The notes under the pieces were generated by a model that was not told the DNA's origin, did not search any database, and saw only the letters and a list, made by a program, of their open reading frames with translations. Source: Corallococcus macrosporus (GTDB lineage: Bacteria > Myxococcota > Myxococcia > Myxococcales > Myxococcaceae). Taken from it: DNA of 64,000 nt. Positions 48,699 through 64,000 of the stretch are shown one piece after another; position 1 is the first letter of the stretch, and each line of letters opens with the position of its first letter. Where the stretch lies: positions 1 to 64,000 of the forward strand of contig NZ_JAFIMU010000003.1 of the NCBI RefSeq assembly GCF_017302985.1, in the 5' to 3' direction. Both the position numbers and the translations under genes were made by a program.

Positions 48699-48915
48699 GA
48701 CAACCTCCTGGAGGGGCTGACACCCGTTCGGAATACCGCGGCAAGAGCTGCGGCCTGAAAACGGTAGCCCTGCAGGGAAAAGCCGTCAAAGCGGTACAGC
48801 CCGGGCCTGTCTCCAGGTGTTCGAAGGCGTGTCAGGTCCGGGTTCCAGTCTTCGTGTGTTGTGGACACGAAGGCTGCCGGGTCCATCCCGGGAGCCGCCA
48901 GCCAGGGAGGGGGCC

Positions 48916-49737
48916 ATGTCGCTGAAGGGAATCGCGCAGGAGACCGTCGGAATCGTGGAGCAGGGCGAGTACGTGGCACCGTCCGGGAGGCCCGTGCGGT
49001 TCCGGGAGCAGGTGGAGCACGCCCTGCGCGGGACGCGGCTCTACCGGCCCGGTGACTTCGAGCGGCTGCCCCGGCCCGAGCCTCGCGTGGAAGGCGCCGC
49101 GCTTCGCATCGAGGTGACGCCGGAGAAGACCGGCGCCGCGTCGCGCCGGTGCGTGGAGGCGGAAGGAGTGACGGACGTCGTCGCGCTCAACTTCGCGTCC
49201 GCGAAGAACCCGGGCGGCGGCTTCCTGGGCGGAGCGAAGGCGCAGGAGGAGGACCTGGCGCGCTGCTCGGCGCTCTACCCGTGCCTGCTCACGCAGCGCG
49301 AGTACTACGACGCCAACCGTGCGCAGTCCTCGCCGCTGTACACGGACCACGTCATCTACTCACCCCAGGTGCCGTTCTTCCGGGACGAGGGCCTCACGCT
49401 GCTGGAGAAACCCTTCCGCGTGTCCGTCATCACCGCGCCCGCGCCCAACGCCGGTTCAGCCGCGCGGAACGCACCGCACCTGCTGCCCCGCATGCGGGAG
49501 GTGCTGCAAGCGCGGGCGGTGAAGGTGCTCCAGGTGGCGGCGCACCACGGGCACCGCACGCTGGTGCTGGGAGCGTGGGGCTGTGGCGCCTTCCGCAACC
49601 AGCCGCACGACGCGGCGGAGGCCTTCGCCAGCGCCCTGGACGCCTTCCCCGGCGTCTTCGAGCGCGTGGTGTTCGCGGTGTGGGAGCGGGGAGGGGACGG
49701 CCCCAACCTGCGGGCCTTCCGCGAGCGGTTCGCCTGA
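48916..49737 (+). CDS. Bacterial-type poly(ADP-ribose) glycohydrolase (TIGR02452 family)
   Basis: A 273-residue protein of the TIGR02452/microbial PARG group. The catalytic loop is intact: NFASAKNPGGGFLGGAKAQE, then EDLARC, giving GGG-x7-QEE, where the two Glu act on the ADP-ribose bond. AAHHGHRTLVLGAWGCGAFRN is the macro-domain-like part. It removes poly- or mono-ADP-ribose from targets in the cytoplasm. The start at 48916 is set by GGGAGGGGGCC. No ADP-ribosyltransferase or toxin gene is adjacent, so it appears to be an orphan hydrolase. A role in countering ADP-ribosylating toxins is possible but not shown. Confidence 0.87.
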   Translation: MSLKGIAQETVGIVEQGEYVAPSGRPVRFREQVEHALRGTRLYRPGDFERLPRPEPRVEGAALRIEVTPEKTGAASRRCVEAEGVTDVVALNFASAKNPGGGFLGGAKAQEEDLARCSALYPCLLTQREYYDANRAQSSPLYTDHVIYSPQVPFFRDEGLTLLEKPFRVSVITAPAPNAGSAARNAPHLLPRMREVLQARAVKVLQVAAHHGHRTLVLGAWGCGAFRNQPHDAAEAFASALDAFPGVFERVVFAVWERGGDGPNLRAFRERFA

Positions 49738-55528: not shown

Positions 55529-56893
55529 TCAGCGGGCGCGGACGACGGCCAGCGTGGTGAGGCTGCCCCCCTGGGCCAGGTTGAGCATGCTGGAGTCGGA
55601 CTGGCGCACCAGGAAGCCCTCCTGCCGGCCGTGCTCCCAGAGGAAGGGGTTCAGGTCCGAGTTCAGCGACTGCTGGCGCACCCCGCCCCCGTCGAACACC
55701 GGGAACGCCTGCGGCTGCATGGGAACGCGCTCCTGCACCACCCAGGCCTCCCCCAATGCCCGCTGGAGCGTGGCCTTCCACGTGTCCGCGTCCGTCCGCC
55801 AGCCCAGCGTGACGCCGTTGCCGCCGAACTCGTTGACGGGCTTGAGCACCAGGTGTTCGCGGTGCTCCGCGATCCAGGGCACCAGGTCCACGCTCGCGCC
55901 GTCGCGCGACGTGTGCTCCTCGCGCACCAGGCGCGTCCACGGCAGGTGCCGCTGGAGGAGCGTGCCGCGCTCCGCGTCGAAGGCGCCCTCGTCCGCCATG
56001 CGGCTCATGACCGCGAAGAGCGCCTTGGTGCGCAGGATGACCGAGCGGAACAGCCCGTTGAGGAACTGCGCCGCGCCGTCGGTGAGCGCGCGGGTGACCG
56101 GGTGGTCCGGGCCACAGCCGACCACGAAGCCCCCGAAGCCCACGGACGAGATGTACGTGACGACGTCCACCGGGAAGTCCCCCACGCGCAGCACGCCGCC
56201 CGCGTATGTCCAGTCGTCCTCGGACGTGACGATGCGCTGGCGCACGCCGTGCGCCTCCAGGTACTGCTGGTACGCCACCTCCTCGTCGGCGTCGTCCGGG
56301 CTGGCCGGACCGAACAGGGCCAACGTGGGCAGCCCCGAGCGGCCCCCCCTCGCCTGGAGCGCGCCGAGCGACCTCATCAGGTTGGGCGCGGTCGCCGGAC
56401 GGGTGACCTCGTAGCGGCGGCCGAACGCCTCCATCACCGGCGCCACGTCGAAGGCCTGGCCCAGGTGGTGGGAGTTGATGGGGCCCCCAGGGTCGGGGTT
56501 GAACTCGATGAAGCGGATGACCCCGTCCGGCCCCAGGAAGCCATCCAGCCGACCCACGACGGCCTGGCCCGGGCGCAGGCCGTCCACCGGCACCAGCAGC
56601 TCCTCCCACCCCTGCGGCGCGAGTGACGCCAGGAAGGCCGGGTCCCGGGCTGCCCGGGCCGCCAGCTCCTCCAGCGTCTGGTACACCGCGAACGCGCCCC
56701 GGCGGATCTCCAGGTGCTGCTCTGGCGTCACGAAGAACGGCCGCAGCACGCGGTGGAGCCCCCGGCCGCCGTAGGTGATGCTGTTCTCCCGGGCGGTGCG
56801 CTCGAGCAGCTCGTGGGTGCGGCGCGCCAGGTCGCCCTGCTGGAGCAGATCGTCATGGAAGGCGATGGCGTCGGACAGGACGGTGGAGGACAT
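55529..56893 (-). CDS. ATP-grasp-like enzyme next to NRPS cluster
   Basis: A 454-residue cytoplasmic protein. The segment RFIEFNPDPGGPINSHHLGQ and the later HLVLKPVNEFGGNGVTLGW look like the carboxylate- and ATP-binding loops of an ATP-grasp fold in a circularly permuted arrangement. AWVVQERVPMQPQAFPVFD is a further ATP-grasp strand. Such enzymes ligate a carboxylate to an amine or thiol using ATP. In a natural-product cluster it could make a peptide bond or activate a building block. AAGGAAG precedes the ATG at 56893. It lies 14 bases after the tandem NTF2-like gene, so the two form an operon divergent from the acyltransferase/NRPS genes. Confidence 0.72.
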   Translation of the reverse strand: MSSTVLSDAIAFHDDLLQQGDLARRTHELLERTARENSITYGGRGLHRVLRPFFVTPEQHLEIRRGAFAVYQTLEELAARAARDPAFLASLAPQGWEELLVPVDGLRPGQAVVGRLDGFLGPDGVIRFIEFNPDPGGPINSHHLGQAFDVAPVMEAFGRRYEVTRPATAPNLMRSLGALQARGGRSGLPTLALFGPASPDDADEEVAYQQYLEAHGVRQRIVTSEDDWTYAGGVLRVGDFPVDVVTYISSVGFGGFVVGCGPDHPVTRALTDGAAQFLNGLFRSVILRTKALFAVMSRMADEGAFDAERGTLLQRHLPWTRLVREEHTSRDGASVDLVPWIAEHREHLVLKPVNEFGGNGVTLGWRTDADTWKATLQRALGEAWVVQERVPMQPQAFPVFDGGGVRQQSLNSDLNPFLWEHGRQEGFLVRQSDSSMLNLAQGGSLTTLAVVRAR

Positions 56894-56907: not shown

Positions 56908-57783
56908 TCAGGGGCCCTGGGGGCCGGGGTTGGAGTTGCCGCCGTCGGTGACGTAGCGCCACTGGCCATCCGCCTGCCGGCGCCACACGGTGAGGTACTT
57001 CAAGAAGTCCTTCTTCGGCTGACCCTGCGCGTCCTTGCCCGTCCAGATGGCGCGGCCCACCGTGTACGCCAGGTCCCCGGACGCCGCCGCGTCGCCCAGC
57101 ACCGGCTCCCAGCGCAGGTCGAGCTGCTCCAGCGTGAACGGCGCGTAGGCCCTGGCGATGGCGTCGTGGCCGTACAGGCCCGCGTCGCCCATCAGCATCA
57201 CCGCGTCTTGCGCCGCCCAGGCCGTGAACGCCTGGCCCATGCCCTCCCGCACGGACCGCGCGGAGAAGGCGCGGTCCGCCGCCTTCGCCTCCTCCAGCAC
57301 CGCGTCCTTCGACAGCGTGCGCGCCGCGGCCCCGGGCTCCGTGTTCGCTGGCGAGAAGCCCGCGGGCGGCATCATGGGCGCCGTGGCGGCGTTGCGCACC
57401 ATGGCGGCCACGCGCCACTGGCCATCCGCCTGCTGCCTCCACACGCAGATGTAGCGTCCCACCGCCTTCCGCGTCGCCCCGTCCACGTCCACCGTCGCGG
57501 TGCCCACCGAATAGCCCAGCGTCCCGTCCGCGCTCACGTCCCAGCGCACCGGCTCCCACCGCGGCGTGCCGCCCTGCTCCAGCGGGTGCGCGGCCAGCCA
57601 CGTCTGGATGGCCTGCCTTCCCCTCAGCGCGTACGCACCCTCCACCAGCATCACCGCGTCCTCCGCCAGGAAGTCCGCGAAGCCAGCCTCCGCGCTCGCG
57701 TCCGACATCGCCTGCTCCGCCTGCCGCAGCCCCGCACGCGCGTCCGACGCCGTGACCGGCGCACCCGCGAACATCCGGTTCAT
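56908..57783 (-). CDS. Tandem NTF2-like (DUF4440/SnoaL-type) protein
   Basis: A 291-residue protein with two copies of an NTF2-like domain. Copy 1 contains FLAEDAVMLVEGAYALRGRQ, LGYSVGTATVD and YICVWRQQADGQWRVAAM. Copy 2 contains FTAWAAQDAVMLMGDAGLYG, LAYTVGRAIWTG and YLTVWRRQADGQWRYVTDG. The pocket-lining Trp/Arg positions are similar in both. NTF2-like proteins can be binding proteins or enzymes (cyclase, isomerase) in biosynthesis. No signal peptide is present at this start (57783); AAGGGA is upstream. It is the first gene of a leftward pair with the ATP-grasp gene. Confidence 0.8.
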   Translation of the reverse strand: MNRMFAGAPVTASDARAGLRQAEQAMSDASAEAGFADFLAEDAVMLVEGAYALRGRQAIQTWLAAHPLEQGGTPRWEPVRWDVSADGTLGYSVGTATVDVDGATRKAVGRYICVWRQQADGQWRVAAMVRNAATAPMMPPAGFSPANTEPGAAARTLSKDAVLEEAKAADRAFSARSVREGMGQAFTAWAAQDAVMLMGDAGLYGHDAIARAYAPFTLEQLDLRWEPVLGDAAASGDLAYTVGRAIWTGKDAQGQPKKDFLKYLTVWRRQADGQWRYVTDGGNSNPGPQGP

Positions 57784-57878
57784 GGCTTCATTCCCTTTCC
57801 AGTCATGAAGACTCTGTGAATCACGTTCTGTGTGACTACCTTGATTCGCTCTGGGATACACGCAATCGTGACTCATTC
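57784..57878. promoter_or_regulatory. Divergent intergenic region of the biosynthetic genes
   Basis: These 95 bases separate the NTF2-like start from the first acyltransferase start and must carry both promoters. They are clearly less GC-rich than their surroundings. I could not assign -35/-10 boxes or an operator with confidence. Confidence 0.4.
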
Positions 57879-59699
57879 ATGAATCTCTACGACGCGCAGA
57901 CTGTCGACTCGTGCACCTGGCCGGACACGCCCGAGGGCCAGAGGGCCCGGGACTTCATCGTGCCGCTGGTGAAACACGGCAGCACGGCGTACGTCACCGA
58001 CCGGACCACCTTCCAGGTGCTGGCGCTGGACGCGCTGCGCCTGCCGCTGGCCGTCAACGACACGGAGTACGAGAACTCCGCGCTGCACTCCACCTTCTCT
58101 CGCTACATCACGCTGCAGATGACGGGGGTGACGGCGGAGGCGTTCGGCGCGGCGCGCGCGGCGGTGATGCGCGGCGCCATGCACTCGGTGGGGGCGCTGC
58201 TCAAGGCGGCGGGCATCAACAAGGTGGTGCTGGTGGACCACTGGCTGGTGCTGCGCAACGTCCACTCGCAGCCCACCGGTGAGCAGGTGGACCGCATCAC
58301 CGCGTTCCTGGCGGAGCGGTTCCCACACCACGCCATCGTCTTCTGCGCGCTCAACCCGGCCGGTTACGCGCCGCTGCTCAACACGCTGGTGGAGCGGGGT
58401 TACGGGCTGCTCTACGCGGCGCACACGCGCATGACGCTGCCCCTGCAGGAGGTCAGCAAGCAGGTGCGGGAGAACCGGCGGCGCGACGCGCGGCTGCTGG
58501 AGGCGTCCGGCTACCGCGTGGTGGACGGGCGCGAGGTGCCGGACTGCGAGCCCCGGCTGGAGGAGCTCTACCGCGCGCTCAACGGCGGCAAGTACCACAC
58601 CAACCTCCAGTTCACCCAGGAGTGGTACCGCTGGACGCTGCGCCAGGGACTGCTCACCTACAAGCTGGCGGTGAAGGACGGGCGGGTGGATGGCTTCTAT
58701 GCCCACCACGTCAGCCAGGGCGTCCTCTTCTCCCCGCTGTTCGGCTACGACCTGGCGCTGCCGCAGGAGCTGGGGCTGTACCGGGGGCTGGTGTTCCAGC
58801 TCATGAACGACGCGCTGGACGTGGGCCTCACCATCGAGCTGGGGCCGGGCGCGGATCCGTTCAAGAGCATGCGCGGCTCCGTGCCGGTGCCCCGCTGGAG
58901 CGCCGTCTACACGCAGCACCTGGCCGGCCCGCGACGGCTCGCCTGGCGCGCGCTCCAGCGCTACGCCAACGACGCCGTGCGGCCGCCCACGATGGCCATG
59001 CTGCGCAAGGTGGACGGCGACGCGGTGGTGGGCTTCGGACCGCCCCACACGCCCCTGGCCTCGCCCCTGGGGCAGACGCCGCTGGAGGCGGCGCTCAAGG
59101 TGCGCGAGCAGCTGGACGCGCTGGAGGCGGCGCTCGACGCGGCGGCGAGGCTCGCTGGCGATGCGCGCCTCCAGGCCCTGGCCCCGCTGTCGCAGACGCT
59201 GCACAACTGGCCCCAGCCCATGTCGCGCGTGGTCGCGCTGCGCGAGCGGCTGACGAAGCTGGAGCAGGAGGCTCGCCGCAAGCCCGCCCGGCCCGCCGAG
59301 CCCCAGGGCCCCACCCCGGCGGAGCACGCACAGCAACTGCTGGCGTCCGCCACGCGCTGGGGCGACACCGCGCTGGTCGCCGCGCACCTGGGCGAAGCGC
59401 CCGCGCCGCACCTCAAGGCGCTGGTGGAGGCCCTGCGGGGCGCGGCCGGCAGCGTGGGCGTGGTGCTCACCGCCACGCGCGGCGACAAGGTGGTGCTGGT
59501 GACGGCCGCGAGCGCGGCGCTGCGCGGCCTGGGCCTGGACGCGGGGCAGCTCATGGCGGCGGCGGCGCCGTGCGTGGACGGCAAGGGGGGCGGCTCGCCG
59601 GAGGTGGCCTGGGGCGGGGGCGCGCGCACGGACGGTGTGGACGCGGCGCTGGACGCGGCGCGCAGCCGCGTGCGCACGCACCTGGGCGTCGAGGCCTGA
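57879..59699 (+). CDS. GNAT/FemAB-like acyltransferase fused to DHHA1/C-Ala domain (1)
   Basis: A 606-residue protein. Residues about 10-390 resemble the FemAB/BioF2-type double-GNAT acyltransferases (VRENRRRDARLLEASGYRVV near 197, AHHVSQGVLFSPLFGYDLA, LGLYRGLVFQLMND, PGADPFKSMRG). A helical spacer follows. The last ~110 residues match the C-Ala/DHHA1 domain of alanyl-tRNA synthetase: GVVLTATRGDKVVLVTAASA, LDAGQLMAAAAPCV, then GKGGGSPEVAWGGG at 568-581. That domain binds the tRNA elbow. The fusion suggests transfer of an aminoacyl group from tRNA. The ATG at 57879 aligns with the start of the downstream paralogue; a GTG at 57816 is possible but would extend into the promoter. No ribosome site is visible. 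Confidence 0.75.
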   Translation: MNLYDAQTVDSCTWPDTPEGQRARDFIVPLVKHGSTAYVTDRTTFQVLALDALRLPLAVNDTEYENSALHSTFSRYITLQMTGVTAEAFGAARAAVMRGAMHSVGALLKAAGINKVVLVDHWLVLRNVHSQPTGEQVDRITAFLAERFPHHAIVFCALNPAGYAPLLNTLVERGYGLLYAAHTRMTLPLQEVSKQVRENRRRDARLLEASGYRVVDGREVPDCEPRLEELYRALNGGKYHTNLQFTQEWYRWTLRQGLLTYKLAVKDGRVDGFYAHHVSQGVLFSPLFGYDLALPQELGLYRGLVFQLMNDALDVGLTIELGPGADPFKSMRGSVPVPRWSAVYTQHLAGPRRLAWRALQRYANDAVRPPTMAMLRKVDGDAVVGFGPPHTPLASPLGQTPLEAALKVREQLDALEAALDAAARLAGDARLQALAPLSQTLHNWPQPMSRVVALRERLTKLEQEARRKPARPAEPQGPTPAEHAQQLLASATRWGDTALVAAHLGEAPAPHLKALVEALRGAAGSVGVVLTATRGDKVVLVTAASAALRGLGLDAGQLMAAAAPCVDGKGGGSPEVAWGGGARTDGVDAALDAARSRVRTHLGVEA

Positions 59700-59706
59700 G
59701 CCGACC

Positions 59707-61533
59707 ATGATCCTCTACGACGCGACGACCCTCCACACGGCTCCCTTCCCCGACACGGCGGAAGGGCGCGGCCTGAGGAGCTTCCTCGTCCCGCTGGTCC
59801 AGCACGGCCCCGGGCCGTGGTTCGAGGACCGCGCGCGGATGTTCGTGCTGGGGCTGGACGACCTGCTCATCCCGCTGGCCGTCACCGACGGCACCTTCGG
59901 CAACTCGGTGCTGCATTCGGTGTATGAGCGCTTCATCGGCAGCCAGCGCAAGGCCATCCGGACCGGGAACTGGAAGCCCCTGGCCGGCTTCGCCGCCAGC
60001 AGCGCGCTCTGGGGCGTGGGCGCGGTGATGAAGACGCTGCGCCTGGACAAGGCCGTCCAGGTGGACTGCTGGCCCAGCCTGCGCAACGCGGGCGCGAACC
60101 TCACGGAGGACCAGGCGCGGCGGCTGACGGAGTTCCTCACCACGCGCTTCCCGGACCACGCCCCCTACTTCCTCGCGGTGAACCCCGTCACGCACGCGGC
60201 CCTGCTCAACCACCTCAAAGCGCAGGGCTACGACTTCGCGTACATGACGCACACGCGGATGATGCTCCCCTTCGAGCCGGAGCTGGAGCGGCGCGTCCGG
60301 GAGAACCGGCGGCGCGACGCGCGGCTGCTGGAGCCGTCCGGCTACCGCCTGGTGGACGCCCGGGAGCTCTCCGGCTGCGCGCCCCGGCTGGCGGAGCTGT
60401 ACCGGCGGCTGCACCGCGAGAAGTACGCCACCAACCCGCCCATCAGCGTCACGTACATGGAGGAGATGCTGGCGGGCTCGCTGCAGGACGTGCGCGCGCT
60501 GGTGAAGGACGGCCGCGTGGACATGTTCTACGCCACGGTCGTGGTGAACGGCGTCATGTACTCGCCCGTCTCCGGCTACGACACGTCGCTGCCGCAGGAG
60601 GTGGGCCTGTACCGGTTGATCAACAACCTGCTGATGCGCGACGCGCAGGCGCGGGGCGTGATGCTGGAGACCGGCGGCGGCGCGGATCCCTTCAAGACGC
60701 TGCGCGGGGACCGGCCGGTGCCGCGCTACAACGCGGTGTACCTGCGCCACCTGCCGTCCTGGCGACATACCCCGTGGCGGCTGGCGATGAAGGTGGGCAA
60801 CGAGCAGCTGCTGCCCTTCAGCCGCAAGCGCCTGCACGCCGTGGATGGCGAGGCGAACGTCGTGGGCTTCGACCGCGTCCCGGAGGTCTTCGCGCCCACC
60901 TTCCCCACGCCCCAGGAGGCCACGGCGCGGCAGGAGCAGGCGCTGGCGGAGCTGGAGCAGGACCTGGCGCGGACGGAGGCCCTGGGCGGCAACGAGCGCG
61001 TGCGGCACCTGGGCGCGCTGCACAAGCGCCTGGAGGATGAGCAGCTGCCGCCCGCGCGGGTCGCCCCCCTGCTGGAGCGCTGGGAGCACCTGTCGCACGG
61101 GCCCCAGGCCGACAAGAAGGAGAAGCGCAAGGCGCAGCGGGCCGTGCGCGCGGAGCTGGCGCGGCGCCTGCTGGAGACCGCGACCACCGTGGGGGACACC
61201 ACCGTCGTGTGTCACCACCTGGGGGACGGGCTGGACTTCCAGCCACGCACCCTGGCGGAGCAGCTGCGCAAGGGGACCGGCTCCATCGCGGTGGCGCTGA
61301 CGTCCACGCGGGAGGGCACCCTGGAGCTGGTGACCGCGCTGGCGCCGCCGCTGGTGGAGCGCGGCCTGGAAGCACGGCGGCTGCTGGAACAGATGGTCCC
61401 CCCGGGAGTTGCCAGTGGGGAAGGGGGGGCGGAGCTGGCCTGGACGGAGGCGGTCGTCCCCGCTGACGACGTGAGCGCGGTCCTGGAGCGGGCCCGCGCG
61501 GTCCTTCACACCCGGCTGTCCATTCCGACGTAG
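59707..61533 (+). CDS. GNAT/FemAB-like acyltransferase with degenerate DHHA1 domain (2)
   Basis: A 608-residue paralogue of the preceding gene, starting 7 bases after it. The start MILYDATTLHTAPFPDTAEG aligns with the first protein, and ERRVRENRRRDARLLEPSGY and LETGGGADPFKTLRGD correspond closely. In the C-terminal domain the key segment reads GEGGAELAW (571-579) where the first has GKGGGSPEVAW, so the tRNA-contacting Gly-Lys-Gly loop is changed. It may be catalytic with a different RNA preference, or a partner subunit. A coiled segment (ATARQEQALAELEQDLARTE) joins the two parts. It is followed by the NRPS gene 76 bases downstream. Confidence 0.74.
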   Translation: MILYDATTLHTAPFPDTAEGRGLRSFLVPLVQHGPGPWFEDRARMFVLGLDDLLIPLAVTDGTFGNSVLHSVYERFIGSQRKAIRTGNWKPLAGFAASSALWGVGAVMKTLRLDKAVQVDCWPSLRNAGANLTEDQARRLTEFLTTRFPDHAPYFLAVNPVTHAALLNHLKAQGYDFAYMTHTRMMLPFEPELERRVRENRRRDARLLEPSGYRLVDARELSGCAPRLAELYRRLHREKYATNPPISVTYMEEMLAGSLQDVRALVKDGRVDMFYATVVVNGVMYSPVSGYDTSLPQEVGLYRLINNLLMRDAQARGVMLETGGGADPFKTLRGDRPVPRYNAVYLRHLPSWRHTPWRLAMKVGNEQLLPFSRKRLHAVDGEANVVGFDRVPEVFAPTFPTPQEATARQEQALAELEQDLARTEALGGNERVRHLGALHKRLEDEQLPPARVAPLLERWEHLSHGPQADKKEKRKAQRAVRAELARRLLETATTVGDTTVVCHHLGDGLDFQPRTLAEQLRKGTGSIAVALTSTREGTLELVTALAPPLVERGLEARRLLEQMVPPGVASGEGGAELAWTEAVVPADDVSAVLERARAVLHTRLSIPT

Positions 61534-61609
61534 CCACAGTCCTTTCACGACAGCAGCGAGCCCCCTTGTGCGACCGGCATCCCCGGCGCCTGTAGCGAGG
61601 TGCGTTTCC

Positions 61610-64000
<2,391 letters not shown>

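Follow-up and report, generated by a model that had tools for sequence, protein, structure and literature searches.

Tandem double-GNAT proteins with a fused C-Ala domain beside a nonribosomal peptide synthetase in Myxococcaceae

We examined two adjacent genes from Corallococcus macrosporus (contig NZ_JAFIMU010000003.1, positions 1 to 64,000; this whole stretch of 64,000 nucleotides is referred to here as the window) whose products each join GNAT domains to the C-Ala domain of alanyl-tRNA synthetase (AlaRS). Sequence comparison and structure prediction indicate that the product of the first gene (copy 1) is probably a Fem-like double-GNAT aminoacyltransferase that depends on aminoacyl-tRNA and has captured a whole AlaRS C-Ala, with the second (copy 2) as its duplicate and both serving the peptide of a neighbouring nonribosomal peptide synthetase (NRPS). 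The first-pass annotation had placed twin fusions at 57879-61533, and both were recovered as open reading frames on the forward strand: copy 1 at 57879-59699 (ATG at 57879, 606 amino acids, supported by orthologues) and copy 2 at 59707-61533 (608 amino acids). The two genes are 7 bp apart and their proteins are 42% identical. Orthologues of copy 1 show 95-96% identity in near relatives and 53-75% across the Myxococcaceae. The source genome also encodes a third full copy elsewhere (68-69% identical to copy 1), a GNAT-only relative away from the pair, and a normal AlaRS at another locus. An artefact in which two genes had been read as one was rejected, since the fusion is a single open frame in ∼30 proteins from many genomes.

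The C-Ala tail and its GG motif

Identification of the tail as C-Ala/DHHA1, already proposed in the first-pass annotation, was borne out by family models and by a PDB profile search. Pfam DHHA1 matched residues 505-599 of copy 1 above the gathering score (E 6.7e-6) and was found in 15 of 18 homologues of the fusion (best E 3e-11). The alaS model TIGR00344 matched copy 1 (E 4.3e-7) and copy 2 (E 1e-3) through its C-terminal end only; its score, 28.6 bits (cut-off 457), is far below the AlaRS level, and the AlaRS catalytic, tRNA-recognition and editing domains are absent from the fusion. When a profile built from 18 homologous sequences was compared with all PDB sequences, the six top places were all occupied by C-Ala or AlaRS structures, with 3g98 the best (E 1.1e-8) and human 5t5s aligned over residues 404-602 of copy 1 (E 6.9e-6).

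The predicted fold agrees with these matches. The AF2 model of copy 1 (pLDDT 82.6) has helices at residues 401-423, 427-442 and 449-466 in the C-Ala helical subdomain, and its tail superposes on C-Ala structures with Z scores of 15-18 (3g98, Z 16.9, rmsd 1.7 over 110 residues; 2zvf, Z 17.3; 5t5s, Z 15.0). Because the match spans both the helical subdomain (residues 401-489, 59079-59345, from the profile match and the model helices) and the globular DHHA1 subdomain (residues 490-603, 59346-59687, from Pfam and the 3g98 superposition), the tail is, as judged from sequence and predicted fold, a complete C-Ala of residues ∼401-603. The homology proposed earlier therefore stands, and its extent needs revision from the last ∼110 residues to the last ∼200, which include the helical subdomain.

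Conservation of the GG motif separates the two copies. GKGGG is present in all 18 copy-1-type proteins, the third copy included, and in none of the 11 copy-2 proteins. In copy 1 it occupies residues 568-572 (59580-59594; alignment and motif list), and K569 aligns with the GG-motif Lys/Arg of AlaRS that contacts tRNA G18. In Caenorhabditis elegans C-Ala the corresponding contact to D-loop G18 is made, in a docking model, by K934, whose mutation causes an 11-fold loss of affinity (PMC10485164). The C-Ala of copy 2 (60913-61530; TIGR00344, alignment and motif list) reads SGEGGAELAWTEA in place of GKGGG-x-PE-x-A-x-GGG. The diagnostic motif attributed to both twins is thus confined to the first of them and the two cannot be treated as equivalent, only copy 1 keeping the tRNA-contacting lysine.

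Evolutionary rates, obtained by summing branch lengths by hand from the tree, follow the same division: the C-Ala of copy 1 has evolved no faster than its GNAT part, and in copy 2 the rate of the C-Ala is ∼1.6 times that of the GNAT part. In one genome (G023, L069:10830-12272) copy 2 ends near residue 479 without a globular C-Ala and the last C-Ala residues remain in another frame, pointing either to an internal deletion with a frame change or to an assembly fault. The copy 2 sequences are best explained by a paralogue or partner with a tail that would no longer grip tRNA via the GG motif. For copy 1, tRNA binding by the fused C-Ala is likely.

The double-GNAT body

Residues 1-362 of copy 1 (57879-58964) adopt a double GNAT fold in the AF2 model, as determined with VIA-align. 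The best PDB matches that span both domains are all users of aminoacyl-tRNA, namely Sbb17/Sba18 (Z 14.9 over 254 residues), FemX (Z 14.1-14.3 over ∼279-285 residues), MprF (Z 13.6) and FemA (Z 13.0). Sbb17 and Sba18 are aminoacyl-tRNA-dependent peptide synthases with structures containing streptothrisamine. The earlier comparison of the N-terminal part with Fem-like enzymes is thus upheld at the level of predicted fold, which has the double-GNAT architecture of the aminoacyl-tRNA-dependent kind.

Two sequence features bear on the chemistry. The first is a G-x-x-x-F-K-x-x-R-G motif, in which F328-K329 (58860-58865) is invariant in our alignments of the fusions and of relatives that lack C-Ala; the latter, in which the lysine is also kept, have no assigned function. 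DhpH-C requires K329 and uses F328, and FemX requires K305 (reviewed in PMC12945691). We infer that F328-K329 of copy 1 is equivalent to these residues, K329 being the candidate catalytic lysine. The second is the acyl-CoA P-loop, whose canonical consensus is Q/R-x-x-G-x-G/A (PMC4964394). This consensus is broken in the fusions, which read PQ(E/D)(L/V)GLY, and in the relatives, which read G(L/W)Y, with an invariant Tyr in the last position. Since atypical P-loops exist, the break makes use of acyl-CoA less probable and does not exclude it.

Several known systems resemble parts of the fusion. PacB, VlmA, DhpH-C, DhpK, Orf11 and Sbb17/Sba18 resemble it in a presumably equivalent F-K motif, in a place in an operon with biosynthetic enzymes and, for Sbb17/Sba18, in the predicted double-GNAT fold; PacB, VlmA, DhpH-C, DhpK and Orf11 are precedents for aminoacyl-tRNA-dependent chemistry (PMC12945691). 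Unlike the fusion, the Fem-like natural-product transferases covered by that review have no C-Ala tail. They are too distant in sequence for profile detection from the fusion. FemABX and MprF share the two-GNAT layout but act on cell-wall or lipid substrates and lack C-Ala, and the fusion has no Pfam FemAB match.

Recruitment of synthetase parts also has precedents, in MprF-LysRS fusions and in the pairing of VlmA with VlmL (PMC2922099), although MprF-LysRS differs in that a different, whole synthetase is fused. Type II AlaX likewise carries C-Ala outside AlaRS (PMC10485164). The fusion tail has the whole domain in common with AlaRS, with GKGGG in copy 1, but is less basic, has Ser or Ala in place of the second GG-motif lysine and forms a clade of its own. 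AcmF of ascamycin biosynthesis, like the fusion, brings an AlaRS-derived part into natural-product aminoacylation (PMC12945691); AcmF is an AlaRS-like catalyst, however, whereas in the fusion only the putatively tRNA-binding tail derives from AlaRS and catalysis would be by the GNAT part. The GNAT-C-Ala fusion itself was not described in any of the openly licensed papers searched, in agreement with the earlier statement that no enzyme of this architecture was known.

The NRPS operon and the proposed mechanism

An NRPS of 2475 amino acids begins at 61568 on the same strand, directly downstream of copy 2, and runs past the window end at 64000 to ∼68995 in window numbering. It starts with a condensation (C) domain and a Ser-type adenylation (A) domain, in keeping with the serine-activating NRPS of the first-pass annotation. 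Co-occurrence of the pair with an NRPS holds in all 12 tandem loci (Corallococcus, Citreicoccus, Archangium and a further Myxococcaceae genus, g19), an orthologous NRPS following directly on the same strand with 69-96% identity over the part read. In copies readable to the end, Pfam and motifs give the order C-A-T-A-T-C-TE (T, carrier; TE, thioesterase). The code of the first A domain, DVWHVSLVD, is a Ser code (compare DVWHVSLI of PvdJ, and DVWHLSLVDK). That of the second is DLFNNALTY, probably an Ala-type code as in McyA; the code was not found in the papers searched. The domain order is unusual in itself and conserved across genera: no C domain precedes the second A domain, and the last C domain is followed directly by TE with no carrier between them (window 61568-64000; L053:68-7495).

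We propose that the GNAT domains of copy 1 would hold an acceptor together with the charged CCA end of a tRNA and move the amino acid to the acceptor amine in the manner of PacB, VlmA and FemX, with the invariant F-K pair (K329) near the reaction centre. The GKGGG strand of C-Ala would grip the elbow of the same tRNA, and the helical part would dimerise the enzyme. This acceptor would be attached to the NRPS line. Copy 2, apparently an ancient duplicate in which the GNAT part is kept, would most likely be a second transferase or a partner subunit of copy 1 that retains the helical (dimerisation) part and has lost the gripping motif. Together with the Ser-activating NRPS and, usually, an ATP-grasp-like ligase, the pair would make a small peptide and draw one or more of its residues from charged tRNA. 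The nearest working model is offered by PacB, through which L-alanine from Ala-tRNA is added to the NRPS product pacidamycin (PMC12945691).

Several observations weigh against this mechanism. The fused C-Ala has a net charge of ∼0 and ∼10 Lys/Arg residues, compared with ∼+2 to +3 and 17-18 in C-Ala of Myxococcaceae AlaRS, and the second GG-motif lysine is gone (GGGK to GGGS/A); with this loss and the lower basicity, tRNA affinity could be weak. The branch that joins the fused C-Ala to AlaRS has a length of 1.1, which may reflect altered function, yet GKGGG is kept in the copy-1 types. C-Ala alone is also no proof of tRNA binding, since some of these domains, the human one among them, bind DNA instead. 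For the GNAT part, the Pfam family is Acetyltransf_6 and not FemAB (in copy 2, PF13480 matches residues 196-330, E 9.2e-8), and a GNAT-part profile searched against the PDB gave no FemX-family chain and no convincing match of any kind. VipF, an acetyl-CoA enzyme with two GNAT domains, is among the fold matches, though it ranks lower (Z 12.3).

A narrower form of the proposed mechanism, in which C-Ala recruits tRNA-Ala specifically, as Ala-tRNA-Ala or mischarged Ser-tRNA-Ala, and the pair supplies Ala or Ser, is possible but doubtful. The Ser code of the first A domain and the probable Ala-type code of the second would fit it, as would the preference of C. elegans C-Ala for tRNA-Ala, although that domain binds various tRNAs (PMC10485164). 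C-Ala, however, contacts invariant elbow bases present in nearly all tRNAs, and specificity for Ala need not follow.

We consider it somewhat less probable still that the GNAT part is a conventional N-acyltransferase using acyl-CoA or acyl-ACP, such as one tailoring the NRPS product, and that C-Ala serves only as a dimerisation module via its helical subdomain. The Pfam name of the GNAT domain and the use of acetyl-CoA by VipF would suit such an enzyme; the helical part of C-Ala mediates AlaRS dimerisation (PMC10485164), and copy 2 persists with a degenerate globular part, or in one genome with none. Dimerisation alone would not need the globular GKGGG, however, which is kept in every copy-1-type sequence, while the broken P-loop with its invariant Tyr and the aminoacyl-tRNA users among the best full-length fold matches also argue against it. 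A regulatory or moonlighting protein with a tail for binding DNA or some other nucleic acid is very improbable: DNA is preferred by human C-Ala, and the C. elegans domain accepts both DNA and tRNA (PMC10485164), but DNA binding in the latter lies in the helical subdomain, whereas the element conserved in the fusion is the globular tRNA motif, and an enzyme fold in an NRPS operon points to biosynthesis.

Origin, distribution and neighbouring genes

Among 195 Myxococcota genomes, full-length fusions were restricted to the Myxococcaceae, and a scan of genome contigs found the fusion only in Corallococcus, Archangium and Citreicoccus. In a C-Ala tree all fused domains form one clade apart from every AlaRS sampled (support 100/100). 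Copy 2 is a single clade inside it, and the third copy arose by duplication of copy 1 in Corallococcus. The simplest history is a single fusion followed by duplication. No relative was found in viral collections and none of the defence-system models matched; on plasmids, the matches were either GNAT relatives that lack C-Ala or of AlaRS type and limited to the tail.

The plasmid relatives without C-Ala occur in Paenibacillus, Paraburkholderia, Roseateles and Rhizobium. Those at L073, L075, L076 and L077 share a conserved set of genes encoding a KAS III, an NAD(P) oxidoreductase, an MBL hydrolase and an F390-synthetase-like ligase (the TIGR02304 match in L073), often with an ATP-grasp or DUF3419 gene as well. 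This set looks like a little-studied biosynthetic cluster. At a further locus (L004) a GNAT relative without C-Ala (Acetyltransf_6, 1435-2562) directly follows an aspartyl/asparaginyl beta-hydroxylase-like gene (573-1454). The third, copy-1-type gene of Corallococcus (L055, the C2:638552 region of the source genome; also L066, L067, L068 and L072) lies near a different NRPS, of which a C-A-T-C-A-T-TE part runs in the opposite direction; a LysR gene and an FBP_C gene separate the two.

On the reverse strand of the window, 55529-56893 encodes a probable circularly permuted ATP-grasp ligase of ∼454 amino acids. All 6 homologues matched CP_ATPgrasp_2, with 2e-5 as the best E; on its own the window gene gave E 0.012, under the curated cut-off, and E 0.13 to 3n6x, and its AF2 model (pLDDT 44) was too poor for use. 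Similarity to the circularly permuted type 2 is weak but consistent, and such a gene is close by in 9 of the 12 tandem loci. Between it and copy 1, and divergent from the latter, lies a gene with two SnoaL/DUF4440 domains by Pfam (56908-57876, reverse strand); homologues adjoin several Corallococcus pairs, and its membership of the cluster is uncertain. A microbial PARG-type gene is found upstream in two related genomes (window 48817-49737; L056:6408-7688), with PF10021 in L056 and the window member in the same blastp cluster.

We consider the proposed mechanism, a Fem-like transferase with a captured C-Ala, well motivated by the sequences and the predicted fold. In the current view, known Fem-like transferases use a charged helix to hold the acceptor stem of tRNA, and to our knowledge no elbow-binding module has been described in them. 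More tentatively, the pair might represent a new architectural class, in which a Fem-like catalyst with an AlaRS-derived elbow grip forms a heteromer with a non-gripping duplicate and supplies a dedicated NRPS with amino acids carried on tRNA. If an elbow module was gained by fusion, it would reveal how enzymes of biosynthetic pathways compete for charged tRNA, and copy 1 with the GG motif and copy 2 without it would form a natural test pair. The locus suggests that predatory myxobacteria carry a peptide gene cluster not yet studied and, from its sequences and modelled structure, looks like a previously undescribed route by which a natural product would receive amino acids diverted from protein synthesis.

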